This document shows, in pieces, positions 7,342 through 29,954 of a stretch of 47,009 nt of DNA. The notes beneath the pieces are model-generated. The model made no database searches. It had not been told where the DNA came from and saw nothing but the letters and a program-made list of their open reading frames with translations. Positions within the stretch are counted from its first letter, which is position 1. Each line of letters opens with the position of its first letter. Source of the DNA: Streptomyces sp. (lineage in GTDB: Bacteria > Actinomycetota > Actinomycetes > Streptomycetales > Streptomycetaceae); the NCBI RefSeq assembly GCF_031178505.1, contig NZ_JAPSIW010000003.1, forward strand, positions 1 through 47,009. Direction: 5' to 3'. The position numbers were made by a program, and so were the translations under genes.

Positions 7342-10300
7342 GTGGCGACGAATCGAGCCGGTTGGATTCCCGACGAGCGTCTGGTTCGCGAGGTCGACGA
7401 CCTCTTCGAGCGGGCGACCAACTCGTATCGTGCGAATTCGCACCTGATCGCGGAGCACGCCAACCAGGAGGAGTCCATCCGAGTCGGCGGTTACTCGAAC
7501 CGCACGCTACTGGAGCTGGTGCAGAACGCGGCCGACGCGATGTCGGGAGCCGACGAGCACGAGGAGGGGGCCGGGCGGGTCGAGATCGTCCTCGACCTCG
7601 ATCGCCAGACCTTGTACTGCGCGAACGCCGGGCGTCCGTTTTCGCGTAGCGGCCTGACCACGCTCGCGCACGCGCACCTCAGCGGTAAGAGAGGTGATGA
7701 GATCGGGCGGTTCGGACTCGGGTTCAAGTCGGTGCTCGCGGTCACCGACGCTCCGCAGGTGTTCAGCCGGTCGATCGCCTTCGAGTTCAACTCTCCCAAG
7801 GCGAAGGCGGCCCTCGCGGCGATCGCCCCCGCATCCAAGAGGCTGCCGGTCCTAAGGACCCTGACGCGGATCGATGCCGACGTCGAGTTCGCCGAGGACC
7901 CGATCCTGGCCGAGCTGGCGGAGTGGGCGGTGACGATCGTCAGACTGCCGCGCGCGTCGAGGTTGGAGAACCTCCGGAGGGAGATCGAGGAGTTCCGCTC
8001 CGAGTTCCTCCTCTTCGTCAACTCGGTGCGCGAGGTCCGGCTCCGGGTCGTCGGCGCCGACGCCGACTTCGTGACGAGCCACGTGTCGCGTGACCTCGGT
8101 GACGGTAGGTTCCGCATCGAGCGTCCCGACGGTGACCACGAGGAGTGGTACGTCGAGAATCGGATGCACGCACCCAGCCCCGAGGCTCGGACCGAGGTCG
8201 GTGAAGCGGTGTCGCGTGACCGGATGAAGGTCACGGTCGCCATGCCAGCACGGTTCGCCCAACTGAAGACGGGCGGGTTCTGGTCGTATTTCCCGCTCCA
8301 GGACAGGACGTCGGCATCCGCCCTCTTCAACGCCCCTTGGAGCGTGAACGACGACCGCACCACGCTGCTCGCGAACACGTACAACCGGGAGATCCTCGTG
8401 ACTCTCTCCGGGATGTTCCTCGACATGTTGCCGAAGGTCTCGTCCTTCGACGATCCTGCAGCGCACTTGGACTACATGCCTGCACGTGGTCGCGAGACCC
8501 ACTCGTTCGGCGACGAGATCCTCTGCGTTCATATCCCGCAGCTCGGATGCGAGAGGGCTCTGATCCCCGATGCTGCAGGTGTACTGCGCACGCCGCCGGA
8601 GCTCCGTCCTCTCGACTTCCGCGTCAGCGAGGCGTCCGAGCGCGACCACGAAGAGTGGATCAAGTCGCCCCACACCAGTGGCGATGTGCCGCACTGGCGT
8701 TGCTACGCCAACAATCAGCGTATGACGCGTCTGCGGACGCTTTACGTGTGCAGTGTCTCCTCCGCCTTCGTCGACTCGCGGCCGAGGGATGAGGCTAAGG
8801 CGCTGGAGAAAGTACCCAAGAGAGGCGTCCTGTCGTGGCTGCGCGAGTGGGCGGAAGGGGCCGACGCGGCCTCTGCCGCGAGAGCGCTCGACTTCGTGCT
8901 GCGGAATCCCAGAGTCGACGGCATCGGCTCCGCGAAGGTCATACCCACGACCGACGGCATGAAGTCCGTCAAGGATCGCGGTCAGGTCTTCCTCCATCGC
9001 GTGGAGGGCATCGAGGTCGAAGGATCGTGCTTCGTCGATCCGGATTTTCTGGCCGTTCCCGGCGTCGAGAAGAAGCTCGGTGACAGGGGCTTCCGAGACC
9101 TTGACCCGCTCGCGAAGTTCGAGGCCAGGATGGCCAAGCTGTCGCCGGAGTCGGAGGACGACGAGCTTCCGAAATTCTGGGACGCGGCCGTCGACGTGCC
9201 CATAGCGCAGGCGCAGAAGGTCGTGGCGGGCAACAAGGCCGGTGCCCTCAAGGTTCCGACACGGGACGGCGGCTGGGCGTCGCCCGAGTACGTACTGGAC
9301 ATCGACGGCCTCGGTGACGGCATTGCCGACCGAGTGTTGGACAGGACGAAGTGCGTTCCCCAGATCGCCCATGCAGCAGGCGTCATCACAGAGCCTGTGG
9401 CTTCGTACTCGGTCGAAGAGGAGGTCCATTTCGACGACTACTGCCAGTACGTCCTGGATGAGCTGAACCGGAGGTTGGGGCCCGGGGAGCGCCACGTCGA
9501 AGAGGTCGAGTTCGACAAGGGCGACGGCCCGGGTCCGTTCTCGGCACTCCTCATGCTTAAGGAGGCGGAGGCGCCTGAGAGCATCCGCGAACACTGGACG
9601 GAGAGGCTGCTCAGGCTCGACGAGGCGGGTTACTGGCTCTGCACGGACGTCGACACGGGGCTCACCCACCGAGTCGCTTCCCCCGTGCGATGGGCGGTGG
9701 ACCAGGCTGGCCTGCTGAAGTCGAGCCGCGGTTACCGGGCTCCCGGTCACGTCGTCTCCGCGTCGCTCGTCGAGTACGAGGCCCTGCTGCCTCTCTTCCG
9801 CGGACCGCGCCACGTCGAAGACGCCCTGGCACTGCCGAAGGCGCTGGACGAGGTTCCGGCGGAAGTCATGCGCGATGCGCTCCGATCGGAGGTCCTCAAG
9901 CCGATCAAGAACGGGGCCCTGACGGGGTTCGTCCTCACTGCCGGCAGGACCGCATTCCCGGACGGGCGTCCGGATCTCATCCCCGCCAGGGTTGGACGCG
10001 TCATCGAGGCGAGGCGACCCGACGCGGTGTACTTGGCGACGACCGAAGAAGAACGCGCGTTCCTCAGCATGAGACAGAAGCCGTACCTCAAGGCGGACCC
10101 CGACGAAGCGGAGCTGCTCGTCGAGGAGGTCGGATGTCGTCGGTTCGAGGACAGCTTCTCCTTCTCGCTGCTGGTCGACGGCCGGCAGGGCGAGGAGCGC
10201 GTCATCGACTTGTACGCCGGGCTGCGTTCGACGTTCGTCGAGGACAAGGTCGTGAACGCGACCGTGGCGAAGGCCGTCCAGATCACGAAGCGCGTGACCA

Positions 10301-12063
10301 CCGAGGACGGCGTCGAGGACCAGACGCTCGAGTGGCATCTCGAGGGGCTGACTCTCGTGGTCCATGCCGACCTCGACGAAGAGCGCGTTCTGCAGATCGT
10401 CAACGGCGCGTTCGACCTGCGTCTGTCGAACGCCGAGCTGAGCGACATCCTCCGAGCACGTGCAGACCAACGTCTGGAGGAACAGCGGCAGGCCGCCCGG
10501 GCCGCAACCGGTGATGCGGAGCGCCTGGAGATCTTCTTCGGCGACGACACGCTGAAAGAGTGCCTGCCGAAGGGGCTCTGGCAGGCACTCGACGGGCAGG
10601 GCCTGGTGGACGACTCCACGTCCGTTGCGGAGCTCTTCCTGACGGTCTACGGCAGCGACTCGATCAGATTCCTCAAAGATCAATTCAGCGTCGAGGGGTA
10701 CACGGACGTTCCCACGGCGTGGGCGGGGGGAGCGTCGACCGTCGCCTGGCTCCGGAAGATGGGATTCGGCACGCAGTATGCCGGACGCCGCGGTCGGCAC
10801 CAGGACGAGGAGTTCGTCGTGCCCGGTGCCGTGAGGCTCAACCCTCTGCACGATTTCCAGAAGGAGATCAGCCGGGAGCTGAAGGAGGTTCTGACGTCCC
10901 GAGAAGCGGACGGGCGCGCACGCAAGGGCATGGTGGAACTTCCGACGGGAGCCGGAAAAACTCGCGTGGCCACCGAAACCGTGCTGCGGCTCTTCGTCGA
11001 CGGCGACATGAGCGGAACCGTGATCTGGATCACGCAGTCGGAGGAGCTCTGCGAGCAGGCGGTGCAGACGTTCGAGACCGTCTGGCGATGGCTCGGCGAC
11101 GAGCGTCCGTTGACCATCGGCAGGCTCTGGAACTCCAACGTGGTCCACGAGCCAGACACCGAGTTCAGCGTGGTCGTGGCCACCGACGCCAAGCTCGACA
11201 GGGTTGCAGACACCCCCGAGTACGAGTGGCTCAGTCGCGCGTCCGCGGTGTTCATCGACGAGGCGCACCGGGCGGGCGGGTCGAAGATGTACACGAAGAT
11301 CCTCAGGTGGCTCGGAGTCGACGGCCGTAGCTGGGAGCGGCCTCTGGTGGGCGTCTCGGCCACCCCGTTCAAGGGGAAGAGCGACGTCGTCACCAAGCCG
11401 ACGGAGGAGCTGGCGGCCCGCTTCGGCCACCACATCATGAGGGCCTTCGGAGGCAACGCCTACGAGGAGCTGTCGAAGAGGGGCGTCCTCGCGCGGGTTC
11501 GACACGAGGTGCTGAAGGGCGTGGACGTCGCGCTGAAGCCGGATGAACTCGAGCAGGTGCAGTCGTGGCGCAAACTCGAGCCCAAGGTTCTCGACCGCAT
11601 CGGGCGGGACCAGGCTCGTATGCGGATCCTCGTGGAGGACATTCTTCACCGGGACCCGGAATGGCCGATCCTCGTGTTCACTCCGAACGTCCTGTCCGCC
11701 CAGGTCCTCGCCGCCACGCTTCGTTACCGGCAGGTCGCGGCCGAGGCGGTCAGCGGCCAGACCGGACGGCAGGCACGCCGTGACGTAATCGAGAAGTTCA
11801 AGAAGGGGGAGATCCGGGTCCTGGCCAACTGCGATCTGTTGATCCAGGGCTTCGACGCACCGGGTGTCCGGGCCCTGTACATCGCGAGGCCGACGTTCAG
11901 CCCCAGCGCGTACATCCAGATGGCCGGCCGCGGACTGCGCGGCCCCGCGAACGGCGGCAAACCGGAGTGCCTCATCGTGGACGTCGCCGACAACTTCGGG
12001 GCGGTCAACGATTTCCTCGGATACCGCGCCTACGAAGACCTCTGGCGAAAGCAGGGAGCATGA
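7342..12063 (+). CDS. GHKL (sacsin/Hsp90-like) ATPase fused to an SF2 helicase
   Basis: A 1573-residue protein. The N-terminus carries a GHKL ATP-binding fold: TLLELVQNAADAM (N box, about residues 54-66) and IGRFGLGFKSVLAV (G2 box, about 122-135), with the spacing of sacsin- or Hsp90-type domains. A long middle region (about 250-1150) has no motif I recognise. The C-terminus is a DEAD/DEAH-type translocase with Walker A PTGAGKT (about 1201), DEAH in FIDEAHRAGG (about 1306), VSATPFKG (about 1338), and motifs V-VI (LIQGFDAPGVRAL ... YIQMAGRGLRG, about 1505-1534). GTG 7342 is preferred. TTG 7297 would add 15 residues. The stop overlaps the next gene (ATGA). A role in nucleic-acid surveillance in a phage-defence complex is inferred from the neighbours. 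Confidence 0.85.
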   Translation: MATNRAGWIPDERLVREVDDLFERATNSYRANSHLIAEHANQEESIRVGGYSNRTLLELVQNAADAMSGADEHEEGAGRVEIVLDLDRQTLYCANAGRPFSRSGLTTLAHAHLSGKRGDEIGRFGLGFKSVLAVTDAPQVFSRSIAFEFNSPKAKAALAAIAPASKRLPVLRTLTRIDADVEFAEDPILAELAEWAVTIVRLPRASRLENLRREIEEFRSEFLLFVNSVREVRLRVVGADADFVTSHVSRDLGDGRFRIERPDGDHEEWYVENRMHAPSPEARTEVGEAVSRDRMKVTVAMPARFAQLKTGGFWSYFPLQDRTSASALFNAPWSVNDDRTTLLANTYNREILVTLSGMFLDMLPKVSSFDDPAAHLDYMPARGRETHSFGDEILCVHIPQLGCERALIPDAAGVLRTPPELRPLDFRVSEASERDHEEWIKSPHTSGDVPHWRCYANNQRMTRLRTLYVCSVSSAFVDSRPRDEAKALEKVPKRGVLSWLREWAEGADAASAARALDFVLRNPRVDGIGSAKVIPTTDGMKSVKDRGQVFLHRVEGIEVEGSCFVDPDFLAVPGVEKKLGDRGFRDLDPLAKFEARMAKLSPESEDDELPKFWDAAVDVPIAQAQKVVAGNKAGALKVPTRDGGWASPEYVLDIDGLGDGIADRVLDRTKCVPQIAHAAGVITEPVASYSVEEEVHFDDYCQYVLDELNRRLGPGERHVEEVEFDKGDGPGPFSALLMLKEAEAPESIREHWTERLLRLDEAGYWLCTDVDTGLTHRVASPVRWAVDQAGLLKSSRGYRAPGHVVSASLVEYEALLPLFRGPRHVEDALALPKALDEVPAEVMRDALRSEVLKPIKNGALTGFVLTAGRTAFPDGRPDLIPARVGRVIEARRPDAVYLATTEEERAFLSMRQKPYLKADPDEAELLVEEVGCRRFEDSFSFSLLVDGRQGEERVIDLYAGLRSTFVEDKVVNATVAKAVQITKRVTTEDGVEDQTLEWHLEGLTLVVHADLDEERVLQIVNGAFDLRLSNAELSDILRARADQRLEEQRQAARAATGDAERLEIFFGDDTLKECLPKGLWQALDGQGLVDDSTSVAELFLTVYGSDSIRFLKDQFSVEGYTDVPTAWAGGASTVAWLRKMGFGTQYAGRRGRHQDEEFVVPGAVRLNPLHDFQKEISRELKEVLTSREADGRARKGMVELPTGAGKTRVATETVLRLFVDGDMSGTVIWITQSEELCEQAVQTFETVWRWLGDERPLTIGRLWNSNVVHEPDTEFSVVVATDAKLDRVADTPEYEWLSRASAVFIDEAHRAGGSKMYTKILRWLGVDGRSWERPLVGVSATPFKGKSDVVTKPTEELAARFGHHIMRAFGGNAYEELSKRGVLARVRHEVLKGVDVALKPDELEQVQSWRKLEPKVLDRIGRDQARMRILVEDILHRDPEWPILVFTPNVLSAQVLAATLRYRQVAAEAVSGQTGRQARRDVIEKFKKGEIRVLANCDLLIQGFDAPGVRALYIARPTFSPSAYIQMAGRGLRGPANGGKPECLIVDVADNFGAVNDFLGYRAYEDLWRKQGA

Positions 12064-13577
12064 TCCTGGTACCGGATCTCGCCGACGTCGAGACGACGAC
12101 CACCAGCAACGCCGAACGGCGGGTGGCGCGACTGCTGCGGGCGATCGACGGGCCCCACGGGGCGGTCGCCTTCCACTCGGTGAAGCTGCGGAGTCATGCG
12201 GTCAAGCAGCAGGGGGAAGCCGACTTCGTCGTGCTCTGGGACGGTGTCGTCGTCATCGTCGAGGTCAAGGGCGGGGGCGTCAGGAAGTACGACGGCGTCT
12301 GGTATTCCATCGACCGCCACGGTGACTGGAAGAAGCTGCGCGAGTCCCCGATGGACCAGGCGCAGTCGGCGATGTACGCGTTGCGCGACATTCTTCAGGA
12401 GGAAGGCGTCGGTTGGTTCGCGACCGAGGCCGTCGCCCTCACCCCCGACATCGACGCGCCTCCGGCCGCGGTCGAGTGGAAGGGGAGCCACTGGTGGGCC
12501 AGGGACCAGATGACCATCGCGGCGATGACGGAAGCCTTCGAGAAGGTCGCCGGTGAGGCCAGGACCGCACCCTTCGGAGTCAGGATCGCTCGGTCCGAAA
12601 CCCTGCGGGCGCGCCTCTTCGGCGAGTTCACGCGGATGCCCGTTATCGATGCACAGCGGGGCGCCGTCCTGGAGGAGCAGAACCGGGCGACCGAGGGGCA
12701 GGCACGGGTCCTGGCCGCGCTCTCCCGAAACCCGAGGATGCTCGTCTTCGGCGGTGCGGGCACCGGAAAGTCCCTGGTGCTGGTGGAAGGCGCGAAGCAG
12801 GAGGCGGGCGAGGGAAAGTCGGTTCTCATCACCTTCCACTCACCCGCCCTCGTCGACTTCTTCGGTCCGCGGATCGAGGGCAGAGACATCGATCTTCTTC
12901 CGTTCGCGGACTTGTCAGGTGACAAGCAGTACGACGTCGTCTTCGTCGACGAGGCGCAGGACCTTATGAACGCCGAGGGTATGGACGCACTGGACTCCGT
13001 GATCCGCGGAGGTCGCGAGGGCGGTCGGTGGAGGATGTTCCTGGATCCGAACAACCAGGCGCGCGTCGACGGCGAATTCGACCCTGATGTCTGTGAGCTG
13101 GTCCAGCAGGAGGCGCTCCAGTACGACCTGGACCGGAACGTCCGCAACACCCGGGCGATCGTCCACGTCGTGCAGGAATACCTGGGCGCCGACGTCGGAG
13201 ACCCGGGCATCGTCCACGGTGACCGAGTGGAATGGCGGTGGTCCGATGCGACGGCCGACGTCGACGCGGCGGAATCCGTGGCCCGGGACCTCGTCGCGGA
13301 CGGCGCCCGTCGTCAAGACATCTGGATCATCAACGTCTCCGAGGGTGCCGAGCCTTATAGAAGCGAGGCCGGGTTCCTCGTGACGAACCCGCGGTTCGCC
13401 AAGGGGCTGGAAGCAGAGCACGTCATCGTCTGCGGCCTGCCCCGTGAGTACGACGATCGGGGCCTGGCCGCCTTCTACGTGGCAGTCACGAGGGCGCGGG
13501 TCACGCTCCACGTGATCGCGTCCAAAGAGGACAAGAAGCGGCTCCAGGCTCTTCTTCGAAAGCAGGTCTGCAAGTGA
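12060..13577 (+). CDS. NERD-domain nuclease fused to a UvrD-like (SF1) helicase
   Basis: A 505-residue protein starting at ATG 12060 inside the previous stop. Residues 15-115 form a NERD (nuclease-related) domain. The PD-(D/E)XK pattern is visible as QGEADFVVLWDG, then VVIVEVKGG (about 52-73). The helicase part shows Walker A GGAGTGKS (about 231), Walker B with Q motif VFVDEAQDL (about 295), and a UvrD C-terminal end with NPRFAKGLEAEHVIV and AFYVAVTRARVTLHV (about 470). The middle subdomains are short compared with full UvrD/Rep enzymes. Coupled overlaps at both ends place it in one operon with the ATPase-helicase and DrmA. It could cut or process phage DNA loaded by its partners. Confidence 0.85.
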   Translation: MILVPDLADVETTTTSNAERRVARLLRAIDGPHGAVAFHSVKLRSHAVKQQGEADFVVLWDGVVVIVEVKGGGVRKYDGVWYSIDRHGDWKKLRESPMDQAQSAMYALRDILQEEGVGWFATEAVALTPDIDAPPAAVEWKGSHWWARDQMTIAAMTEAFEKVAGEARTAPFGVRIARSETLRARLFGEFTRMPVIDAQRGAVLEEQNRATEGQARVLAALSRNPRMLVFGGAGTGKSLVLVEGAKQEAGEGKSVLITFHSPALVDFFGPRIEGRDIDLLPFADLSGDKQYDVVFVDEAQDLMNAEGMDALDSVIRGGREGGRWRMFLDPNNQARVDGEFDPDVCELVQQEALQYDLDRNVRNTRAIVHVVQEYLGADVGDPGIVHGDRVEWRWSDATADVDAAESVARDLVADGARRQDIWIINVSEGAEPYRSEAGFLVTNPRFAKGLEAEHVIVCGLPREYDDRGLAAFYVAVTRARVTLHVIASKEDKKRLQALLRKQVCK

Positions 13578-19598: not shown

Positions 19599-19801
19599 CC
19601 CGGCCCTTGGGCGCCAAGCGCGGGAGGGCGGGCGGTAGGCAGAGGTGCGCCGTCGGCTCGCGGGGCCGTCGGATGATCCGCGTGAAGGGTGCCCAAGGTC
19701 CACTCCTCGAGCTTAAGGTGCTGCATGACCTGATCGAGCAGTCCGAAATGGACCTGATTGGGGGCCGGCGCGAAACGCTGTTGAGCTGTACAGTCGGGAG
19801 A

Positions 19802-19831: not shown

Positions 19832-19837
19832 GCGCCA

Positions 19838-21118
19838 ATGCGCCAACCACACAATGAAGTCGACGCCTCCGAAGTGGAGGCGGGGGATCCCGGTCTCGCT
19901 CCGCTGAGGACGATCGACCTCTTCGCCGGCTGCGGTGGGCTGACGCAGGGCTTCGTCGACGCGAAGTGCGGCGGCCGTCCGGTGTACCGGCCCGTCGCAG
20001 CCGTCGAGCTCGATTGGGCAGCGGCGGCTACGTACGCGGTGAACTTCACCGAGAAGTTCGGGGCGCATATCCACCAAGGGGACATCGCGGACTGGGTCGA
20101 CAGGCCCGGAGGACTCCCCGAAGCCGACATCGTGTTGGGTGGCCCGCCCTGCCAGGGGTTTTCGAGGCTTGGAAACCAAGATCCGAACGATGCGCGCAAC
20201 CAGCTTTGGCGCCATTATCTGGATGTGGTTTCAACCGTCCGGCCGATGGCTTTCGTTATGGAGAATGTTGACGCCTTCAGGAATTCTCCCGAATTCGAAC
20301 TCTTGCGCAGAGAAGTTCGGGATGGGGGAGCTCTCTCCGAATACTTCATCTACGATGATCTTCTCAACGCTGCTGATTATGGTGTGCCGCAACGACGTTT
20401 CCGTGCGATTGTCGTCGGAATCCGAAAGGATCTACGATCCGCCGTGGACTCGGCTCGTCTAATCGATGACCTGACGGACATGGAACTACAGGCCGCGCTC
20501 ATCCCGACTCCGGCTGCCGGGCCCGAACGCACCGTATGGCAGACGATTTCCGACCTCGTGCTGCGCAAGCTCTCCTCCGATCTACCCACACGCGAGGTGT
20601 CCGCTAACGGGCGTAAGATCGCCGGCCCGTTCCGTATGGACGAGCTTCATCTGCGCCGAAACGGCATAAAGCCGATCTCGATGGCGCGCTATCGTTCCAT
20701 TCCCGAGGGGGGAAACCGGTTCGACATCCCCTTCGAGTTGCTTGCGCCTTGTTGGAAGAAGCACAAGAGCGGTTCCGCCGACGTCATGGGGCGACTGCAC
20801 CGCGACAAGCCGTCGGTCACCATCCGTACGGAGTTCTTCAAACCGGAGAAGGGCCGTTACCTGCACCCTTGGCTGCATCGGCCCATCACACACCTGGAAG
20901 CGGCCAGACTGCAGGGCTTCCCGGAGTCTTTCCAATGGTGTGGAAGCAGGAGCGACATCGCACGGCAGATCGGTAACGCCGTGCCCGTCGGGCTGGGACG
21001 GGCCATCGCCGAGCACCTCGCCCCGCTGCTACTCGCTCAGCGGGACCTTCAGGCAACGACCACGGTGAAGGCTCCCCGTCCGCCCAAGCGGCGACGAAAG
21101 CTGGCGGCGGCTGCCTGA
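19838..21118 (+). CDS. C5-cytosine DNA methyltransferase
   Basis: This 426-residue enzyme transfers a methyl group from S-adenosylmethionine to cytosine C5. The motifs are in order: DLFAGCGGLTQGF (I, about 26), GGPPCQGFSRLG with the catalytic Cys (IV, about 102), FVMENVDAF (VI, about 139), QRRFRAIVVGI (VIII, about 185), a target-recognition region (about 210-330), and IARQIGNAVPVGLG (IX-X, about 376). ATG 19838 fits the leaderless promoter. ATG 19673 would add 55 poorly supported residues. It may protect host DNA from the adjoining restriction genes, the role of DrmMII in class 2 DISARM. The DNA from about 20155 to 20480 is visibly richer in A and T than the rest. Confidence 0.93.
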   Translation: MRQPHNEVDASEVEAGDPGLAPLRTIDLFAGCGGLTQGFVDAKCGGRPVYRPVAAVELDWAAAATYAVNFTEKFGAHIHQGDIADWVDRPGGLPEADIVLGGPPCQGFSRLGNQDPNDARNQLWRHYLDVVSTVRPMAFVMENVDAFRNSPEFELLRREVRDGGALSEYFIYDDLLNAADYGVPQRRFRAIVVGIRKDLRSAVDSARLIDDLTDMELQAALIPTPAAGPERTVWQTISDLVLRKLSSDLPTREVSANGRKIAGPFRMDELHLRRNGIKPISMARYRSIPEGGNRFDIPFELLAPCWKKHKSGSADVMGRLHRDKPSVTIRTEFFKPEKGRYLHPWLHRPITHLEAARLQGFPESFQWCGSRSDIARQIGNAVPVGLGRAIAEHLAPLLLAQRDLQATTTVKAPRPPKRRRKLAAAA

Positions 21119-21264: not shown

Positions 21265-23973
21265 GTGGTGGCCGTGGCCGACCTGACGTCCGCGGCCGAC
21301 GGGCGCGCGGGTCGGACGCCGCTCGTATGGCGGTCGACCTGTAGGCCACCCCTACGATCGCGGTACGCCGTGTATCCGAAGGGGTGGGGCTTGCAGGAGT
21401 TCGAGGATCAGTACGAGGCGTTCAAGCGCCTGATCAAAACGCACACGCCCGAACAGGCGTTGGCGACGATCAAGCTCTTCGGTATGTCCGACGAGCTCGC
21501 CAAGCGCATTGCGGAGCGTCATCAGCAGGAGACCATCGCCGTCCGCGAGAAGCGGGAGCCCGGTTCCGTCGTCCGGAACAACCGCGAGACTTGGTACGTC
21601 GGCCCCCAGGACGACGACAGGTGCTGGCCCGCTCTCAGGAACCTGCTGGCGAAACAGTCGTGGGACGAGGACAGCCTGCGCGGCCTCGACTCCGCTTCGA
21701 CCAAGGTCGTTTCTATGCTCGACCACCCCCTAGAGAGCGCGTTCTCTACCAGAGGGCTGGTCGTCGGCTACGTGCAGTCGGGTAAGACCAGCAACTTCAC
21801 CGCGCTCATCGCGAAGGCGGCCGACGCCGGATACAAGTTCTTCATCGTCCTCGCCGGCGTCCACAACGGGCTGCGACTGCAGACCCAGCTCCGACTCGAG
21901 CGGCAGCTCGTGGAGCCGGTGATAGACCAGTGGCACCCGCTCACCGGTCGCGTCGGGGACTTCGAGCCTCCCGCGGGCAACCCGGCGGCCTTCTTCGGCG
22001 ACAAGAGTCAGCAGCACGTCCTTTGCGTGATCAAGAAGAACGTGCCCAGGCTGCGGAAGCTCAAGGCGTGGTTGGAAAAGGCGCCCGACTACCTGCGCAA
22101 CTGCCCGACACTGATCATTGACGATGAGGCCGACCAGGCGAGTGTCGCGTCACGTAGCACCAATCCGCTGATCCGGGAGATCGTTGATCTGTTCCCCCGC
22201 GGGGGATACGTCGGTTACACCGCCACGCCTTTCGCCAACCTGCTGATCGACCCCGCCGCCAAGGACCTCTATCCGGAGGACTTCGTCGTCAATCTGCCGA
22301 AGCCACGCGGACACTTCGGCACCGAGGTTCTGTTCGGCCGGGACGCTTTGGACGGCGAGGACCCCCAGGAGGTACCGGACGGATACGACATGATCCGCAC
22401 GGTCCCCGACGAGGAGGTGCCCCTCGTTCGACCGGGACGAGACGAGATCGAGGGGTTCGTACCCGAGATCAGCGGTGCCTTGAGGACGGCAGTCCTGTAC
22501 TTCTGGCTCGTCACGGCCGCCCGACGGGTGCGTGGTACGGGGGTTCCCCACTCCACGATGCTCGTCCACACGAGTGTCAGCACCGTCGTCCACGAGAGCT
22601 TCGAAAGGCCCTTGGAGGCGTTTCGCAAGCGGACGGCGGGGTGGCTCGATGCCGCGGACGGGGAACTGCTCGAGGAGCTGAGGCGGCTCTGGGAGGCCGA
22701 GATCGCCCGTGTCCCCGGTAACGAGCCGGACCTCGGGGAGACGCCCGTTCCCTTCGACGCTCTCCTTCCGTTGTTGGCCGGTGTGGTGGACGACTGTCGC
22801 ATCATCCTGGACAACTCGAAGAGCGTGAAGCGATTGGACTACGAGGCCGGCCCGGTCGTCGCCATCGCCGTGGGCGGCAACACTCTGTCGCGTGGCTTGA
22901 CCCTGGAAGGGCTCGCCGTCAGTTACTTCGTGCGAAACGCCACGACGTACGACTCTTTGCTGCAGATGGGCCGCTGGTTCGGCTTCCGCGAAGGGTACGC
23001 AGACCTGCCGCGCATCTGGATGACGGACGGGATGCGCGACTGGTTCAGGCACATCGCCACCGTCGAGTCGGAGATGCGTCGGGACATCGATGTGTACATG
23101 GTCGAGGACAAGACGCCCAGGACCTTCGCCGTCCGCATGCGGACCCACCCGTCACTCCGTATCACGGCGGCGGGCAAGATGCGGGACGCGGTGAAGGCGA
23201 GTGCGGCGTACGGAGGGCAGCGTGTGCAGACCCGCTACTTCCGTACGCGGGACGCCGAGTGGTTGCGGGCCAACCGGCAGGCCGCCCACGACCTCGTCGA
23301 CCGCTCCCTGCGATTGGCGGGAGCCCGACACCAGGACAACGGAATGCAGGGCAGGCACATCCTCCGAGGTGTGTCCTACGACATCATCCTGGACTTCCTC
23401 GACGAATACCGCTTCCACGGCAAGTCGTTGGAGTGCGACGCGGGTCTGTTGCGCAGTTACGTAGAGCGTCGGGTGCGGTCCGGGGGCGGCGGTTCGCTGA
23501 AGCGCTGGAACGTGGCGATCATCGGCAATCCGCTCAGCGGTGATCCGGAAAAGCGGTACGAGTTCGGTCCCGGGCTCGCCGTGGACCGCGTCATCCGAGC
23601 GAAGCTCGGCGAAAGCGGAGGCGACGCCGCCGACATCAAGACCCTGATGAGCCGTCGCGATGCCGGCGTCGATCTCGACCTCGGTGCGCTGACGGAGATC
23701 AACGAGGCGGCGCTGAAGAACGCCAGGCGCGAGCAGGCGCCCGACACCGCGTTGCTGACCCTGTACCCGATCGACGCTCTATCGCCGTCACCGACGAACC
23801 GCGAGAGGCGTGCTCCGCTCGATGCCGTCGACCACGTGATCGGCGTCGGTCTGGTCTTTCCGATGCCTCGGGGTGAGGACAGTGAGGTGGAGTACTACAG
23901 CGCCGACCTGTCCCGCGTACAGGACGACGAGGAGGAAGACCTGTCGTTGCTCTTCGAGGAGGACGACAGTTGA
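21265..23973 (+). CDS. Z1-domain SF2 helicase/translocase
   Basis: A 902-residue protein. GTG 21265 lies 6-7 nt after GGGAGGG. The ATPase core has GLVVGYVQSGKTSNFTALIA (Walker A, about 164-183), TLIIDDEADQASV (about 283), and GYVGYTATPFANLLID (about 313). The Z1 domain follows: AIAVGGNTLSRGLTLEGLAV (about 535) and DSLLQMGRWFGFREGYADL (about 563-581), which combine motif V/VI features (SRGLT, MGRWFGFR). Z1 proteins occur in restriction-type gene clusters with C5-methylases, Vsr and GHKL ATPases and are thought to drive DNA translocation. It is the first of five genes joined by 1-4 bp overlaps. Confidence 0.92.
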   Translation: MVAVADLTSAADGRAGRTPLVWRSTCRPPLRSRYAVYPKGWGLQEFEDQYEAFKRLIKTHTPEQALATIKLFGMSDELAKRIAERHQQETIAVREKREPGSVVRNNRETWYVGPQDDDRCWPALRNLLAKQSWDEDSLRGLDSASTKVVSMLDHPLESAFSTRGLVVGYVQSGKTSNFTALIAKAADAGYKFFIVLAGVHNGLRLQTQLRLERQLVEPVIDQWHPLTGRVGDFEPPAGNPAAFFGDKSQQHVLCVIKKNVPRLRKLKAWLEKAPDYLRNCPTLIIDDEADQASVASRSTNPLIREIVDLFPRGGYVGYTATPFANLLIDPAAKDLYPEDFVVNLPKPRGHFGTEVLFGRDALDGEDPQEVPDGYDMIRTVPDEEVPLVRPGRDEIEGFVPEISGALRTAVLYFWLVTAARRVRGTGVPHSTMLVHTSVSTVVHESFERPLEAFRKRTAGWLDAADGELLEELRRLWEAEIARVPGNEPDLGETPVPFDALLPLLAGVVDDCRIILDNSKSVKRLDYEAGPVVAIAVGGNTLSRGLTLEGLAVSYFVRNATTYDSLLQMGRWFGFREGYADLPRIWMTDGMRDWFRHIATVESEMRRDIDVYMVEDKTPRTFAVRMRTHPSLRITAAGKMRDAVKASAAYGGQRVQTRYFRTRDAEWLRANRQAAHDLVDRSLRLAGARHQDNGMQGRHILRGVSYDIILDFLDEYRFHGKSLECDAGLLRSYVERRVRSGGGGSLKRWNVAIIGNPLSGDPEKRYEFGPGLAVDRVIRAKLGESGGDAADIKTLMSRRDAGVDLDLGALTEINEAALKNARREQAPDTALLTLYPIDALSPSPTNRERRAPLDAVDHVIGVGLVFPMPRGEDSEVEYYSADLSRVQDDEEEDLSLLFEEDDS

Positions 23974-24986
23974 GCGGGGGCGCCGATCTGCGGCGTGTGC
24001 TCGACCGGCACTGGGCCGAGTTGGATCTCGCCCCACTCGGCCCAGGAGCTGCTCTCAGGACCTCTCCGCTCCCCGTCGTCACCGAGCACGGGGCGGTCGC
24101 TGCGGCTACCGACGGTGACTCGTTGCGTCACTTGCTGATCCCCCTCCGGGGACGTCGACGTGTCCCCACCGGGCGGATCGGCGGAACACTCCGCGTCATG
24201 GAGCGGGCGTTGCAGGACGACGAGACCTACGGACGTTTCGCGGACATCGTCTGCACCCGTAGGGATCTCGACGACGTCTTCACGGGGCTGTGCGCCGACG
24301 TCCTCGTGGCACTGGAGGCGGACGGGCGGCAGCCCTACCGCACTACGCTGGCGGTGGTGAACCGCTGGCGTCAGCTCTTCAGCGGCATACCCCGCACGCT
24401 CACCGAGACGCAGGAGATCGGCCTCATCGGCGAGTTGTCGGTCCTCCTCCGCCTGCTCGTCAAGGACCCGGGCGCCGTGAGGTGGTGGACCGGCCCCGAG
24501 GGAGGACGGCACGACTTCTCCGACGGCCTCCGCGCCGTGGAGGTGAAGAGCACGCACACGACCTCGGAGCGTAGGACTTTCGACGTCCACGGACTCGACC
24601 AGCTGGAGGCACCGCAGGACGGTCGTCTGATGCTGGCCTGGCAGCGGTTCGAAAAGAGCCCGCGGGGGCGGACCGTCGGTGAGCTCGCCGCGGAGGCGGC
24701 CCGGATGTGCGACGACGAGTCGGAGCTGTGGCTTCGACTGGCACGTGTCGGCTATCGGCACGGACAGACGGACGACGAAGGCGCACTGCGCGTGTCACCG
24801 CTTGAAGAACGTTGGTACGAGGTCGACGGGGCCTTCCCCCGCCTCACGGCCGCTTCGCTGACGGAGCCGGTACCCGACGCACTCCTGGACGTTCGCTACA
24901 CCGTCGACCTGGCCGGTGTCCACTCGCCGGTGCTGGACGACGCGTCCGTGGATGCCTTCCTGGACGAGCTGGGGTGGACGCCATGA
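23970..24986 (+). CDS. PD-(D/E)XK nuclease-like protein (DUF4420 type)
   Basis: A 338-residue protein. TTG 23970 overlaps the Z1 stop. The probable active site is E in IGLIGELSVLLRLL (about 152), D in GRHDFSDG (about 180), and E-x-K in RAVEVKSTHT (about 191), with the order and spacing of PD-(D/E)XK restriction nucleases. Proteins of this type regularly stand next to Z1 helicases and GHKL ATPases in predicted restriction systems, where they are the likely cutting subunit. The C-terminal half (about 230-338) is a beta-rich domain of unknown role. Confidence 0.85.
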   Translation: MSGGADLRRVLDRHWAELDLAPLGPGAALRTSPLPVVTEHGAVAAATDGDSLRHLLIPLRGRRRVPTGRIGGTLRVMERALQDDETYGRFADIVCTRRDLDDVFTGLCADVLVALEADGRQPYRTTLAVVNRWRQLFSGIPRTLTETQEIGLIGELSVLLRLLVKDPGAVRWWTGPEGGRHDFSDGLRAVEVKSTHTTSERRTFDVHGLDQLEAPQDGRLMLAWQRFEKSPRGRTVGELAAEAARMCDDESELWLRLARVGYRHGQTDDEGALRVSPLEERWYEVDGAFPRLTAASLTEPVPDALLDVRYTVDLAGVHSPVLDDASVDAFLDELGWTP

Positions 24987-26863
24987 GCGCGGAATCCCCG
25001 CGTTGGTCGTCCGAGCCCTACGCCCCCGGCGGCGGAGGGACGGCCGAAGGTGCCTTGAAGAACCTCGACGGCACCGAGCTCGACCCGCTGACACTTCTGG
25101 TGAGGGAGTCGGCTCAGAACAGCTGGGACGCACGAACCGGGAATGGTCCGGTGAACTACCGAGTGGAACTGCGCACCCTCGGGCCCAGTGAGGCTCCGGT
25201 GTGGCGCGAACTCCTGGCCGCGGGCGCGCCTCAGCTTCGACACCTCAAGCTCCGGGCCTCGCTGGCACGTCCCGCCCCGCGCATCCTGACCGTGACCGAC
25301 ACGGGGACGAGGGGACTGGGCGGACCCACCCGCGCCGACGTCGCGGTTCCCGGGCAGTCGGACTTCGCGTCGTTCGTCCGCAAGACCGGCAGCTCCAGCA
25401 AGGTCACCGGCCGTGGTGGCACCTACGGTTTCGGGAAGGCGGTTTTCCACCTCCTCTCCGCATCGCACACGGTGATCGTGCACACGCGCTGTCGGGTGGA
25501 CGACCGATTGGAGACCCGACTCATCGGGTGGGCGGTCCACGAGAGCTACACCGTGGAAGGTGACGACGGTGCGAAGACGTTCACCGGCCGCCACTTCTGG
25601 GGAAGGGTCCGCCGCGGTTACGTCGAGCCGCTGCTCGGGGATGAAGCGGACGAGGTCGCCGGAAGTCTCGGCCTGAACTCCCTCCCCGACGGCGACACCG
25701 GGACTTCCGTCGCGATTCTCGACCCGGTCTTCGGCGAACGCGACGACGCCGAGGCCATGAGGTGGATCGTCGACGCGATGGTCTGGAACCTTTGGCCGAA
25801 GATGCTCCCGGAGGGAGGAGACGCCCCCATGCGCTTCTCCGCCCACCACGAGGGCCTGGCCGTCCCCGTTCCCAGGCCGTCGGAGGTGCCCCACCTGCGA
25901 CCGTTCGTCTGGGCCTACGACGACATGACCCGTCTCGTCGAGCACAAGTCCATGGGGCGCGTCCTCGGCCGACTCGGTATGCGGAAGTTCATCTCCCCGC
26001 AGGGAAGGCCCCCTCGGGTGGCGCAGGAGGCGGGTATCGGGGACCGGCTTCACCACACGTGTCTCATGCGGCCGGTCGACCTGGTGGTGAAGTACCTCGA
26101 AGGTCCCCCGTTCTTCGAGGAGAGCGGAGGTTACGCCGCGGTCTTCCGTGCCGACGCCGCAGTGGACCGGGTCTTCGCGGCGGCTGAGCCCGCATCGCAC
26201 GACGCCTGGTTGGTGGACAAGCTCAGTGGCGACGACCAGCGCCTGGCCAAGCACGCCCTCCGGAAGATCAACGACGCGATGAAGGAGGCTTCCGGGCCGG
26301 CCCGGGTGGCGAACGAGGCGGGCGAAGGTGTCTCCCTCGCGGGGATGAGCCGACTCATGGCTGGACTCATGGCGGGTACGGCGGGGGAGGGGGCGGAGGC
26401 GGTATTCGCCGCGGATACGACGCCCCCGGGAGGTTCGTCGGGCACCGGACGGGGCTCCGGAGGGCCGGCCGGAGCCGGCGGGAGCCCCGGCCCCAGAGGA
26501 GGATCCGGCGTCCCTCCCGGTCGCCGGCGCGTTCTGTACGACGGAGCCCCCGAACACGACGTCGTGGACGGTGAAGCCGTCATCGTCCAGCGATTCATCC
26601 TGCCCGACGCGGGCTCCTACGTCGTCCACGGTCGCCCCGCCGTCGCGTTGGGCGACGGACGCGGTGTCGAGACGGAGCCGCCCATCGGAGCGTCGATCCC
26701 CACGGTGCTGGGATGGCGTGCGGGGAGCGGACCCGTGACTGACGGGTCCTCGTTGCACACGGTCGGCGGTGACGGCACGGTCTGGTCGCTGGTCGTCCGG
26801 CCGGCCCCCGACACCATGACCGAGGTGACGGTCGTGGCCGAGGCAGGGGGTGACGATCGGTGA
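24983..26863 (+). CDS. GHKL ATPase (MutL/MORC-like) of the restriction locus
   Basis: A 626-residue protein with ATG 24983 overlapping the previous stop (ATGA). The ATP-binding fold shows LVRESAQNSWDAR (N box, about 38-50), VTDTGTRGLGG (G1 box, about 101), and GRGGTYGFGKAVFHLLSA (G2 box, about 141-158). A transducer-like domain follows (to about 340). Residues about 480-525 are a low-complexity Gly/Pro/Ser linker, and a beta-rich C-terminal domain ends the protein. Such ATPases dimerise on ATP binding and clamp DNA. Related proteins in Z1/C5-methylase operons have been proposed as the prokaryotic relatives of eukaryotic MORC proteins. I assign the family by motif only. Confidence 0.82.
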   Translation: MSAESPRWSSEPYAPGGGGTAEGALKNLDGTELDPLTLLVRESAQNSWDARTGNGPVNYRVELRTLGPSEAPVWRELLAAGAPQLRHLKLRASLARPAPRILTVTDTGTRGLGGPTRADVAVPGQSDFASFVRKTGSSSKVTGRGGTYGFGKAVFHLLSASHTVIVHTRCRVDDRLETRLIGWAVHESYTVEGDDGAKTFTGRHFWGRVRRGYVEPLLGDEADEVAGSLGLNSLPDGDTGTSVAILDPVFGERDDAEAMRWIVDAMVWNLWPKMLPEGGDAPMRFSAHHEGLAVPVPRPSEVPHLRPFVWAYDDMTRLVEHKSMGRVLGRLGMRKFISPQGRPPRVAQEAGIGDRLHHTCLMRPVDLVVKYLEGPPFFEESGGYAAVFRADAAVDRVFAAAEPASHDAWLVDKLSGDDQRLAKHALRKINDAMKEASGPARVANEAGEGVSLAGMSRLMAGLMAGTAGEGAEAVFAADTTPPGGSSGTGRGSGGPAGAGGSPGPRGGSGVPPGRRRVLYDGAPEHDVVDGEAVIVQRFILPDAGSYVVHGRPAVALGDGRGVETEPPIGASIPTVLGWRAGSGPVTDGSSLHTVGGDGTVWSLVVRPAPDTMTEVTVVAEAGGDDR

Positions 26864-27762
26864 ATCGTCGCGCCTACCCCTATCGCAGCGCGGCCGTCGG
26901 GTCGGTGACGATGTCCGAGTGGTCCCTCAAGTCCGAGGACGGGGAAGCCGTTCCGCTGCCCTCCTTCATACCCGACTGGGACTTCCAGAGAGACCTGTCC
27001 CTCGAGACGGTGGTCGAGGTCGACCTCGACGCAGTCAGGGCTTCGGCCGGACTCCCATACGAGGCCGAGCTCGCCCTCTCCGCGATCTGGAGTTCCACCG
27101 GCAGCGGCCTCCGGCGACTGGCCCACCGAATCACACTGCACGGTGGGGGCATCCGATCGGCACAGCTCTCGTTCACCGTGATCGGACGCGACAGCGGCGG
27201 CCGATTGTCCCTCGACACCCAACTGGTTCTCGCGAAGGCCCTGGACAATCCGGATCCGACCGGCCCCCGACGCGCGGGGTCCGTGCTCTGGCAGCACCGG
27301 GCCGGGGTGCGGCTGCAGGGCGACGCGTCGCAGTTCCCCATGGCCGTGGTCGACTTCAAGAGTGCCGGCTACCCGGAGAACGCTCCCTGGTACCTCGACG
27401 TCGGTCCGAACCTGGAGGCGGCGACGATGGGCGCCGTCGTGCTGCTCGTGAACAGCGGCACGCCGGTCGTGCTCAACGCGCTTCGCCGCGCGGAGAAGGC
27501 GTCATACGCGGAACGGCTCATCCAGTCCGCCGTCCGACAGGACGTCGTCCGCCTGATGATCGAGCGGGCCGTGTCCGACGAAGAGCTGACGGACTCGTCC
27601 CGGTTCGAGCCGGACACGCTCGGTCACACACTGCTCGGCCTTCTGCGTACCTTCCTCCCCGGTACATCCCTCACCTCCCTGCGCATGACACGTCGCACGG
27701 ATCCGGCGCTCTTCTCGGCGAAGATCCAGCACGCCGTCGGCCTCTTCTCCAAGGAAACGTGA
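26860..27762 (+). CDS. Uncharacterised protein of the Z1 operon (300 residues)
   Basis: GTG 26860 overlaps the stop of the GHKL gene by 4 bp (GTGA), and the stop overlaps the next ATG, so it belongs to the same operon. I recognise no catalytic motif. The first half is rich in beta strands (AELALSAIWSSTGSGLRRLA, IRSAQLSFTVIG). After a hydrophobic stretch (TMGAVVLLVNSGTPVVLNAL, about 191-210), the second half is mostly helical, with repeated Arg/Glu (about 215-250). There is no signal peptide or clear membrane span. The role is unknown. By context it is an accessory or specificity subunit of the predicted restriction complex. Confidence 0.7.
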   Translation: MNRRAYPYRSAAVGSVTMSEWSLKSEDGEAVPLPSFIPDWDFQRDLSLETVVEVDLDAVRASAGLPYEAELALSAIWSSTGSGLRRLAHRITLHGGGIRSAQLSFTVIGRDSGGRLSLDTQLVLAKALDNPDPTGPRRAGSVLWQHRAGVRLQGDASQFPMAVVDFKSAGYPENAPWYLDVGPNLEAATMGAVVLLVNSGTPVVLNALRRAEKASYAERLIQSAVRQDVVRLMIERAVSDEELTDSSRFEPDTLGHTLLGLLRTFLPGTSLTSLRMTRRTDPALFSAKIQHAVGLFSKET

Positions 27763-28523
27763 TGGTCCACCTGTATCCGCGGCTTCTGCCCGCGGCCGCG
27801 GCCAACCTCCGGGAGGAGTGCCTACACCGTTCCGTCGAGTATCTGCGTGATCGTTCGGCTCTCTCCCACCCGGCCATGTTCTACGCGGCCACCGGCGGGT
27901 CCCGTCTTCCCGAGCGGAGCCTCGGCTCCCTACGCGAGGCGGTGCTCGCGTGCGCCACCGAACGCGGCTATCCCGCCAAACCCGGCAGGAGGCAGGCGGC
28001 GGGTTTCGACATCGACGTGGCGACGGTCCTCCACCGAGACTCGGGCATCGTTCCGGCGGAGGCGGTCGCGGGTGACCTCTGGGCCTTCCTCTCCCTCGTC
28101 GTCCTGCCGGACGTGTCCGCGTGGAGATTCGCGGACCTGCATCGCGACCGGGTGCTGGGGACCGACGTCACACGCCACGTCTTCGGCCGGCTGTGGTGGC
28201 GAGCACACCTTCTGTACGACGAGGACGGAGGGAGGGAGGACCTCTACGCCTCGTTGTCCGTGCTCAACGAGTCGGACTTCGACCAGATCTACGCCCGACG
28301 CACCTCGATCGGCGGGAGCCCGCATCTGGTGCGGGCGATCGTCAGGGTGTGGCAAACGCTCGACGTTCCGCCCAACGCGGAGAGGCGGGTACTCCGCGAT
28401 TTCCTCATGCGTGTGCTCAGGCTCAACGCCTTCATCTCCTTCGACTCGCTGCCGGCGGAAGTACTCGACGAAGAGCTGGAAGGCGTGTTCCGGGAGTCGC
28501 TGTCCGTGGTGGCCGGAGGGTGA
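27762..28523 (+). CDS. Uncharacterised protein, DUF6339-like (253 residues)
   Basis: This is the last gene of the Z1 operon, with ATG 27762 overlapping the previous stop (TGATG). The text is largely helical and Arg/Leu-rich, beginning LYPRLLPAAAANLREECL. It has a central WAFLSLVVLPDVSAWRF (about 107-123), then FGRLWWRAHLLYD (about 142) and SESDFDQIYARR-like residues (about 170). I believe it matches the DUF6339 family found near Z1 and GHKL genes, but this rests on memory. There is no visible nuclease or nucleotide-binding motif. The operon ends here, facing the convergent nuclease gene. Confidence 0.65.
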   Translation: MVHLYPRLLPAAAANLREECLHRSVEYLRDRSALSHPAMFYAATGGSRLPERSLGSLREAVLACATERGYPAKPGRRQAAGFDIDVATVLHRDSGIVPAEAVAGDLWAFLSLVVLPDVSAWRFADLHRDRVLGTDVTRHVFGRLWWRAHLLYDEDGGREDLYASLSVLNESDFDQIYARRTSIGGSPHLVRAIVRVWQTLDVPPNAERRVLRDFLMRVLRLNAFISFDSLPAEVLDEELEGVFRESLSVVAGG

Positions 28524-28604: not shown

Positions 28605-29954
28605 CTACTGCAGCAGGATTTCCTCGGGGCGTCGGTTCGTGATCGCGACCTCCCGTCCGGCGAGGACGTGCTCGATGCACGCCGCCAGGTCGCCGCCGTG
28701 GTCGTCCCTGGCCATGCTCCGCAGTTCCGCGACCAGGCTCGTGCCGTTGAGGAGGATGATCGGATACTGATCCTCCACCATCTCGGTCTGTGCCGACTCG
28801 GAGTAGGCGCCGGTGGTGACGTAGACCCCGATCCACCCGCGTCGGAGCCGGGCTACCACCCGGGCGATCTGCTCCGCCGTGATGAGTGTGTCGGGTTTGA
28901 CGCACTTCGCCTGCCCGAGCACGACGAGGCTCGTGCCCGCCAGGCCGCTTCCGCCGCCGAGGTCGAGACGTCCGACGAAATCGGCTCCGCCGTCACCCGA
29001 CCGACGTGTGAGCCAGCCTTCCACGTACCCGTGACCCGCCCCACGCAGTACACGAGCCGCCACCGCGGCGGCCAGAGCCTCGAAGTCGTGCTTGCGGCCG
29101 TCGAAGTACTTGTAGATCGTTTCCAGGTCCGCCGCTTCACCACTGCCTGGCTTCGGGCGCTGATCACGCACCTTGGCCACCTGAGCCCGGGCGACCCGGC
29201 GACGCAGTCCCGGGAGGGCCGAGGAACCGTGCTTGACCCACTCCCGCCATGCCCGTGGCGCGAGGTCGAGTGCTTGAGCGTGGGACACGCCCTTGTCCCT
29301 GCGGGCCCCGATCCATTCCCAGTCGACCGTGTCGTCCTCGGAGGTCAGGTCGATGAGGGCGATGTCGTAGACGTAGTTCACGAACGGGGTGTGCTCGCGG
29401 CCTCCCCATTGCACCAACCGTTCGGTCCGCTCGATGACGCCGAGCCCACAGAACGCCACATGGCCCTTTGGCTTGCCGTTCCGGGGCACTGCGCGGAACA
29501 GCAGCAGAGGCGTGGCGGCGGCTCGTTCATCGGCGGTACGCCCCTGGTGGTCGGTGAAGGCGTCTAGTAGGGCGGCGTTGCCGGTGGTCGTGCCGGGCGG
29601 AACGCTCGAACCGGCCTTGTGATCGCCGAAATAGCGGACGTGGCCGTTGTCCATGTCGAAGACGTCGTGCCAAGGCGTCTGCTCGGTGCCGGCCTTCCAG
29701 GGACTGGAGCGGATGAGGATCGCCGGGCGCCGTATGCCGTCGGGGGTGGAGACCTTGGCCATCCCGTTGATGCCGGCTTCCAGAAGAGCCCGTTTGTGGC
29801 CCGACGAGTGCGTCACGTGGTGGAAGTTCGGGAAGCCGTCGAGCGACTCCGGCTTCGGGTCCTTGCCGCTCGCGTAACGGTAGACCTGTCCCACCCGCAG
29901 CTTCCCACCCACAGCCGGCCCTCTCCCTGGACTCGCTCCCCTATGCGTCATCAC
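28605..29954 (-). CDS. Mrr-type restriction endonuclease, probably modification-dependent (AspBHI-like)
   Basis: This 449-residue protein is convergent to the Z1 operon. The C-terminal third carries an Mrr-type nuclease core: GYVEGWLTRRSGDGGADFVGRLDLG, in two parts, with the Asp at about 323, then LVVLGQAKCVKPD (Q-x-K at about 346), followed by VYVTTGAYSESAQTEM. The N-terminal half (about 20-230) has FHHVTHSSGHKRALLEAG, RYFGDHK and GNAALLDAFTDHQ, which I associate with the DNA-recognition domain of AspBHI-type enzymes. Those enzymes cut DNA containing 5-methylcytosine or 5-hydroxymethylcytosine. The start is GTG 29954 or ATG 29951. If the assignment is right, the enzyme must avoid the host methylation made by the neighbouring methylase. 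Confidence 0.78.
   Translation of the reverse strand: MMTHRGASPGRGPAVGGKLRVGQVYRYASGKDPKPESLDGFPNFHHVTHSSGHKRALLEAGINGMAKVSTPDGIRRPAILIRSSPWKAGTEQTPWHDVFDMDNGHVRYFGDHKAGSSVPPGTTTGNAALLDAFTDHQGRTADERAAATPLLLFRAVPRNGKPKGHVAFCGLGVIERTERLVQWGGREHTPFVNYVYDIALIDLTSEDDTVDWEWIGARRDKGVSHAQALDLAPRAWREWVKHGSSALPGLRRRVARAQVAKVRDQRPKPGSGEAADLETIYKYFDGRKHDFEALAAAVAARVLRGAGHGYVEGWLTRRSGDGGADFVGRLDLGGGSGLAGTSLVVLGQAKCVKPDTLITAEQIARVVARLRRGWIGVYVTTGAYSESAQTEMVEDQYPIILLNGTSLVAELRSMARDDHGGDLAACIEHVLAGREVAITNRRPEEILLQ

Follow-up and report, generated by a model that had tools for sequence, protein, structure and literature searches.

Does a locus in which two different helicase operons adjoin a single DNA methylase encode one restriction machine, two machines that share a mark, or two unrelated neighbours? 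The question is raised by a 47,009-nucleotide stretch of a Streptomyces sp. genome (NCBI RefSeq GCF_031178505.1, contig NZ_JAPSIW010000003.1, positions 1 to 47,009; here termed the window), in which positions 7342-29954 hold a first operon (operon 1) encoding the helicase DrmA together with DrmB, genes for a Vsr endonuclease and a C5-cytosine DNA methyltransferase (C5-methylase), and a second operon (operon 2) built around a Z1-domain helicase. A sequence-only reading of this DNA had joined both operons in one composite system. We consider it probable, from comparison of sequences, that the locus is a mobile island bearing two restriction machines that share one self-marking module, i.e. a variant of DISARM (defence island system associated with restriction-modification) joined to a system of the type described by Iyer et al. 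(2008). Gene content, motifs, conservation, recurrent joining, a methylase clade common to both machines and near-identical blocks in other Streptomyces carry this proposal; that DNA is marked, sensed and cut, and that the mark is shared, we infer.

In the proposed mechanism the C5-methylase would mark host DNA at its site, with Vsr either guarding methylated sites against deamination of 5-methylcytosine (5mC) or serving as an accessory nuclease, and this one pair would supply both machines. Machine 1 would be a DISARM-like DrmA-DrmB translocase in which G1, a GHKL-clamp/superfamily 2 (SF2) helicase, and a NERD-nuclease/superfamily 1 (SF1) helicase replace DrmC and DrmD/DrmE; G1 would act as an ATP-driven clamp, and the machine would load onto unmarked or end-bearing foreign DNA and employ the NERD nuclease. 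Machine 2 would consist of the Z1 helicase and a DUF4420 nuclease, and a second GHKL ATPase, partnered by the Ig-sandwich and DUF6339 proteins, would be its gate. Were one methyl mark to serve both, defence systems would be modular in self-recognition too, beyond their genes.

Gene content and relation to known systems

All of the genes named by the sequence-only reading are present in the order it gave, with profile matches for operon 1, operon 2, Vsr and an AspBHI-type nuclease; the PADLOC and NCBIfam models were applied as profiles to the individual locus proteins, not as system rule engines. Operon 1 (7342-18536, + strand) comprises four genes with short overlaps. G1 (7342..12063; open reading frame (ORF) opening at 7297) fuses an N-terminal sacsin-type GHKL ATPase (NCBIfam NF047352, 71.8 bits against a cut-off of 50) to a C-terminal SF2 helicase (ResIII/Helicase_C), and an alignment of 14 sequences, that of the window among them, shows no variation in the ATP-binding motifs of either domain. 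The middle of G1 (746 residues, predicted fold with a mean predicted local distance difference test score of 87) had no PDB match at E <0.001, the best Z being 3.6, and may still adopt a known fold. The ATG of the next gene (12060..13577; ORF opening at 11967) overlaps the G1 stop, and its product combines a NERD nuclease domain, which retains the GEADF...EVK motif, with a UvrD-type SF1 helicase. DrmA (13574..16753) has the DrmA structure 7s9v as its top PDB match (E 9e-145) and scores 641 bits with the PADLOC DrmA model and 801 bits with NCBIfam NF038325 (DrmAS), the latter under the cut-off of 950, and DrmB (16734..18536) matches DrmB_fam above cut-off (NF038324, 407 bits; cut-off 240) and carries an MrfA Zn-binding domain.

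The C5-methylase (19838..21118, +; Pfam DNA_methylase, 193.5 bits) is the sole methylase of the joined locus, as the sequence-only reading had supposed. Vsr is encoded on the opposite strand (18870..19703, -), with the Pfam Vsr match at residues 138-202, and the N-terminal part of its ORF is possibly a mis-called start. From the Z1 gene onward operon 2 (+ strand) runs with 4-base overlaps through the GHKL, Ig-sandwich and DUF6339 genes: the MzaC-like Z1 helicase (21265..23973; Pfam Z1, 211.7 bits) is followed by the MzaD-like PD-(D/E)XK nuclease (23970..24986; Pfam DUF4420, 163.5 bits; EVK motif present) and by a GHKL ATPase (24983..26863) that has a PADLOC PDC-M33A match and no Pfam match, with the N-box and GxxGxGK motifs intact (RESAQNSWD and GTYGFGKA). 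Two further genes, which the earlier reading had left as unknown proteins, complete the operon; one (27759..28523) is now identified as DUF6339 (46.5 bits, cut-off 23.2), a PDC-M33C relative, and the other (26860..27762) has neither a Pfam nor a PADLOC match and is predicted to form an Ig-like beta-sandwich plus helices. Numerous unrelated Ig-like domains resemble that prediction (Z of 9.0 at best), which therefore points to no function. A single gene at 26850-28523 was considered and rejected, since DUF6339 begins only at 27759 and the Ig-sandwich gene lies upstream in another frame.

Of the known systems, DISARM shares DrmA and DrmB with the locus and, in most related loci, a C5-methylase nearby. 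It differs in that the locus has G1, the NERD/SF1 helicase and Vsr, the first two preceding DrmA, and in that DrmC, DrmD and DrmE, already unseen in the earlier reading, are absent from the PADLOC matches listed for the locus genes (for the methylase, 25 of 61 families listed). Among the models listed, the methylase scores at most 139 bits with DrmMII and 305 bits with DruM2. Canonical DISARM membership was rejected because the class-defining models are missing at the locus and DrmA is under its cut-off. The PLD nuclease DrmC is required by PADLOC's DISARM rules (PMC9252829) but described as non-essential in DISARM, where DrmAB is activated by unmethylated 5'-overhang DNA (PMC9142583); DrmD belongs to class 1 and DrmE to class 2. 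Of the 49 loci with nearly complete flanks (see below), 4 have a PglX/Eco57I-type methylase together with a DrmD-like helicase.

The other half of the locus bears out the earlier comparison with predicted C5-methylase/Vsr/GHKL/helicase restriction systems. By gene content, the MORC/paraMORC restriction-modification operons of Iyer et al. (2008; PMC2292703) share with it the C5-methylase, Vsr, a GHKL ATPase and a restriction endonuclease (RE)-fold endonuclease, as well as an SF2 helicase with its own C-terminal domain, and the neighbourhood of GHKL, SF2 helicase, RE-fold nuclease and methylase/Vsr that marks those operons is present here. They differ in that the accessible text makes no mention of a join of DrmA/DrmB type or of DUF6339 or Ig-sandwich partners; the accessible text of PMC8011034 on paraMORC and Vsr likewise does not name DISARM, DUF4420 or DUF6339. 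Each half varies a described type: the first is a DISARM lacking DrmC, DrmD and DrmE, and the second follows the methylase/Vsr/GHKL/SF2/RE-fold operons of 2008.

Four further systems show narrower likenesses. The Z1 protein and the DUF4420 nuclease match NCBIfam MzaC and MzaD, but far under the curated cut-offs (359 against 1500 bits and 91 against 420, respectively), with no other Mza model listed, and MZA membership was rejected on that ground; the name MZA is absent from the main text of PMC9122126. ARMADA (PMC12458937), for which synergy with a neighbouring system has been demonstrated, resembles the locus in its helicase arrays around a YprA/DrmA-type helicase and in a Vsr-type nuclease. 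It differs in its fused YprA-DUF1998-Vsr, BrxHII and PglX, whereas DrmA, DrmB and Vsr are separate genes here and the locus genes scanned had no BrxHII or PglX match; its main text mentions no GHKL, sacsin or Tiamat, and identity with ARMADA was rejected on the different gene set. In CglI/NgoAVII (PMC4267653) an ATP-driven Z1-domain helicase is likewise paired with a separate nuclease, consuming ATP on DNA and driving its partner, but that nuclease has PLD and B3 domains and the system has only three genes and no GHKL protein. With Tiamat the likeness lies in the N-terminal ~350 residues of G1, which match PADLOC TmtA models (182.5 bits); the best match covers residues 28-378 only, i.e. the ATPase end, with the helicase half outside, so that the match is not full-length. 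In the literature searched (most subscription papers and all supplements lay outside it) we found no description of the G1-NERD-DrmAB arrangement, of the GHKL/Ig/DUF6339 triad beside DrmAB, or of the join, which agrees with the earlier view that the join is not a named system; DUF6339 occurred in none of those papers, and nor did PDC-M33 together with PADLOC.

Operon 1 as a recurrent unit

Conservation of operon 1 was examined in a class sample of 296 genomes, evenly drawn from the class with the window's own genome included, and in a scan of genome contigs. In the class sample, long G1 relatives (E <1e-50, frame of about 1560-1660 residues) occupy 13 places in 12 other genomes and are followed by DrmA and DrmB in 12 of these places; the exception (G118) has DrmAB elsewhere on the same contig. 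The contig scan gave 79 G1 loci, all actinobacterial by record title save one labelled Planococcus, which are the best of 373 relatives, so that this sample favours close kin. Within the E limits used, phages held no G1 relative and plasmids one partial relative. Dereplication at 90% G1 identity reduced 93 loci to 77, of which 49, the window among them, have both flanks nearly complete.

DrmA and DrmB stand alongside G1 in 76 of the 77 dereplicated loci. Among the 49 with full flanks, DrmA and DrmB are each found in 49, the SF1 helicase in 44 (it is lacking in L105, L107, L108, L110 and L130), a C5-methylase in 43 and Vsr in 33, followed by the triad of GHKL, Ig-sandwich or its counterpart c8, and DUF6339 (21), Z1 (8), a NaeI-type restriction endonuclease (8), DUF4420 (4), DrmD and PglX (4) and AspBHI (2). 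The layout models behind these counts derive from clusters of the same loci, so the counts lean towards detection, and the DUF4420 model, with four members, may under-count. Between G1 and DrmA the helicase is of NERD type in the close clade and of UvrD type without NERD in most of the distant clade; its gene is missing in L105, L107, L108, L110 and L112. A recurrent actinobacterial DISARM-like unit of GHKL-helicase, SF1 helicase, DrmA and DrmB, without matches to the DISARM nuclease or class-defining genes, is thereby delineated. The idea that operon 1 is a decayed DISARM, left non-functional by loss of DrmC and DrmE beside a restriction-modification system, would account for the DrmA score of 801 bits against the DISARM cut-off of 950 and for the missing DrmC, DrmD or DrmE matches; we regard it as highly improbable, given the constancy of DrmA and DrmB with G1 and the invariant G1 ATPase motifs.

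The surroundings of operon 1 vary. In the common distant layout, Vsr and methylase genes and then DUF6339, c8 and GHKL point away from G1-UvrD-DrmA-DrmB; in these loci c8 takes the place of the Ig-sandwich gene, to which a comparison of profiles ties it (92% probability). In two loci (L084, L132) operon 1 separates Vsr from the only methylase, so the two are not merely a stray pair; L114 is arranged similarly, but with extra methylase matches beside its Vsr. Models for JetA, PD-T4-6 and MADS matched among the 104 G1 neighbours examined, these being part of 174 listed unassigned neighbours, mostly of about 190-900 residues; for DrmC, no model matched two or more of the 104 (25 of 140 families listed, a single match being possible). 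Four loci (L105, L107, L108, L110) lack the SF1 helicase; their G1-DrmA-DrmB genes diverge from those of a PglX/Eco57I-type methylase and a DrmD-like helicase, so that this core is combined there with a module of class-1 DISARM. In L044, with L057, G1-UvrD-DrmA-DrmB is followed by BrxHII-like, PglX-like, 2126-residue and GajB-like genes, an ARMADA-II-like order, and in L081, L082, L089, L099, L102, L104, L117 and L130 a NaeI-type restriction endonuclease lies near operon 1, mostly adjoining a methylase. On a 7-kb contig of the window's own genome (G000:C807, L226), a UvrD-type gene accompanies a second DrmA-DrmB pair, whose DrmA is 38% identical.

Operon 2, the joined state and a proposed common mark

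Operon 2 also occurs on its own. The order Z1-DUF4420-GHKL-Ig-DUF6339 is found without DrmAB in L204, L205, L207, L209, L211, L212, L213 and L214, with Vsr and/or a methylase near in each (in L204 the methylase is on the opposite strand; the 11-kb contig of L207 shows Vsr alone), and the source genomes of L212-L214 hold operon 1 on another contig. Besides the window, the class sample has 8 places in 7 genomes with a close Z1 (bits >550), of which 2 (G118, G111) have DrmA/DrmB near and 6 have none in the fetched stretch, one of these six (L206) being a Z1 without its partners. Conversely, a close Z1 is present in 10 of the 79 G1 genomes and lacking in 69; it adjoins operon 1 in 7 (L067, L068, L072, L075, L076, L094, L106) and is on contigs of other lengths in 3 (L065, L069, L088). 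A distant Z1 is joined in L124, L125, L127 and L138. The operons are thus mostly apart, the outcome that the sequence-only reading had named as telling against a composite system, and a single obligate machine is unlikely.

Joining has nevertheless recurred. On a tree of G1 from 66 of the 77 representatives (loci of the contig scan plus the window), 10 of 66 rows are joined, the four distant loci included, the Z1 label having been assigned by hand and L128 and L134, whose genomes hold a distant Z1, being treated as unjoined. The joined state requires 9 changes, of which starred branches force at least 8, and shuffled labels require 9.5 on average, so that joined loci are scattered over the tree; gain is not distinguishable from loss among these changes. 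Gene orders differ as well: operon 2 lies downstream on the same strand in the window, divergent upstream in L068, L075 and L076 and convergent downstream in L094 and L106, in addition to the distant layout. A chance join confined to the window was rejected on this recurrence in several orders. Genomes with G1 also carry a close Z1 more often than G1-less ones: 10 of 79 as compared with 5 of 283 (Fisher p = 1.7e-4) and, in the class sample alone, 2 of 12 as compared with 5 of 283 (p = 0.03). Both p values are rough because the genomes are related by descent and were drawn differently.

One clade of methylases serves both operons. The methylase tree holds 98 segments, of which 95 are different, with three joined loci entered twice under two locus ids and with segments <200 residues and non-representative loci omitted. 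One starred clade of 49 rows contains operon-1-only, operon-2-only and joined loci together, and within it L083, L090 and L096 (operon 1 only) group with L205, L209, L212 and L213 (operon 2 only) at 100*. A 24-row clade, which represents one paired methylase type of the distant layout, also holds L205, L212, L213 and L214 (operon 2 only). The window methylase stands on its own branch within the 49-row clade, with 55% identity to that of L044, and fine placement is unsure since long branches are flagged in this tree.

The triad, too, is found with either machine. Relatives of the operon-2 GHKL ATPase at E <1e-60 occupy 14 places in the 296 genomes besides the window, and 13 of the 14 (13 of 16 if two weak partial matches, G210 at 2e-23 and G175 at 1e-15, are counted) adjoin DrmA or Z1: six are within 10 kb of DrmA only (G215, G250, G261, G252, G275, G089), five are beside Z1 only (G055, G259, G101, G069, G185), two are beside both (G118, G111), and G274 has neither. 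At the limits used, no match to DrmA or Z1 was seen in the G210 and G175 genomes. The module of GHKL, Ig and DUF6339 is thus found beside two different helicase machines, mostly with one partner and not both, and the window GHKL is of the Z1-linked type (34-39% identity to four joined close-clade loci, 20-23% to eleven others aligned). We advance tentatively the idea that the triad is an exchangeable gate for two unrelated translocating machines, DrmAB and Z1/DUF4420, reading one C5 mark, so that, where one methylase accompanies both, they would make up a restriction machine with two arms and a common self/non-self check. The triad accompanies NERD-SF1-DrmA-DrmB with no G1 in the stretch in G089 and G252; L215 and L216 show this arrangement together with methylase matches, and are perhaps a DrmAB variant gated by the triad alone. 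In L225 (G274) methylase, Vsr, GHKL, c8 and DUF6339 occur with neither DrmAB nor Z1 within 19 kb.

Could the proteins of both operons act in a single complex or an obligate pathway? One methylase for both in the locus, a block common to two other Streptomyces records at 98-99%, the recurrence of joining in several gene orders and the triad near DrmAB in 21 of the 49 full-flank loci, window included, would all be expected of such an integrated machine, but operon 1 stands alone at 97% identity in S. atroolivaceus, 69 of the 79 G1 genomes lack a close Z1 and operon 2 stands alone in the stretches listed above, and we judge integration improbable. Plain co-location of two unrelated systems in a defence island, without common marking, seems to us unlikely, if slightly less so. 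The island setting at a tRNA with mobilization genes, the other defence genes near G1 (e.g. the JetA, PD-T4-6 and MADS model matches) and the further C5-methylases of the same genome are compatible with it, whereas the locus has one methylase though each half alone usually has one near, the same methylase clade serves both machines, and 13 of 14 strong GHKL relatives stand beside DrmA or Z1. Because joins are repeated in several orders, close Z1 is enriched, the methylases form one clade and the triad lies beside either machine, a chance join is disfavoured.

Several observations nevertheless weigh against two machines sharing a mark. Free exchange of methylases is opposed by the clustering of joined versus operon-2-only labels on the methylase tree (5 changes against 9.8 on average after shuffling). 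Nor is operon 1 strictly tied to a methylase: 15 genomes have none adjacent, and 8 of them have only matches weaker than E 1e-10 to the window methylase (one of the 8, G301, holds methylases of other types, L214), while the other 7 have a methylase at >=45% elsewhere, the match being interrupted by a stop in three of them. Alternative suppliers are possible in the window's own genome, where C5-methylase matches lie on six further contigs, and S. atroolivaceus has a methylase at 49% elsewhere in its genome, near a distant Z1. The Fisher tests compare groups that are linked by descent and were sampled in different ways; within the close G1 clade, Z1 is in the fetched flank of 4 of 25 full-flank loci, with a fifth (L094) just beyond, and co-location may reflect shared defence islands.

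Island setting and neighbouring genes

The locus lies in a 39-kb island at tRNA-Pro, bounded by 66-bp direct repeats of 97% identity that resemble attachment (att) sites. The left copy is at 6779..6844, and the right copy (45921..45986) overlaps tRNA-Pro(cgg) at 45941-46015(-); between them are a relaxase (39253..40986, -) and a NikA/MobC-type mobilization protein (40986..41645, -). Homology to two other Streptomyces records begins at 6784: Streptomyces sp. CCM_MD2014 shares 6784-30279 at 98.6% DNA identity and S. zinciresistens shares 6784-30540 at 98.5%. The right end in CCM_MD2014 is also tRNA-Pro(cgg) with an att copy, and its island, about 24.7 kb by coordinates, contains almost nothing but the defence block. 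S. atroolivaceus shares 6825-18950 at 96.8% and diverges beyond, the remainder of the stretch beside operon 1 lacking Vsr, methylase and Z1. Thus the pair of operons occurs as a block, and operon 1 also occurs without operon 2; with near-identical operon-1 blocks in both states, sharing of the mark is directly testable in Streptomyces.

Immediately left of the first repeat copy, window positions 726-6722 hold an FtsK gene and a tyrosine integrase; such a translocase and integrase outside the left att suggest a second element, similar to an actinomycete integrative and conjugative element (AICE), stacked at the same tRNA-Pro. Between operon 1 and Vsr, the gene that the sequence-only reading had called AbrB-like is present (18701..18889, +) within the stretch common to S. 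atroolivaceus, and its product is a small AbrB/MazE-like protein whose only match, to MazE_antitoxin, is weak (17.9 bits, under the cut-off of 24.7). The locus closes with an AspBHI/Mrr-type restriction endonuclease (28605..29954, -; AspBHI_N and Mrr_cat), which PADLOC assigns as methyl-directed; if it cuts 5mC DNA, its site must differ from that of the methylase. L040, L044 and L086 likewise have an enzyme of this type next to a methylase or Vsr; in L199 some 3 kb separate it from the methylase.

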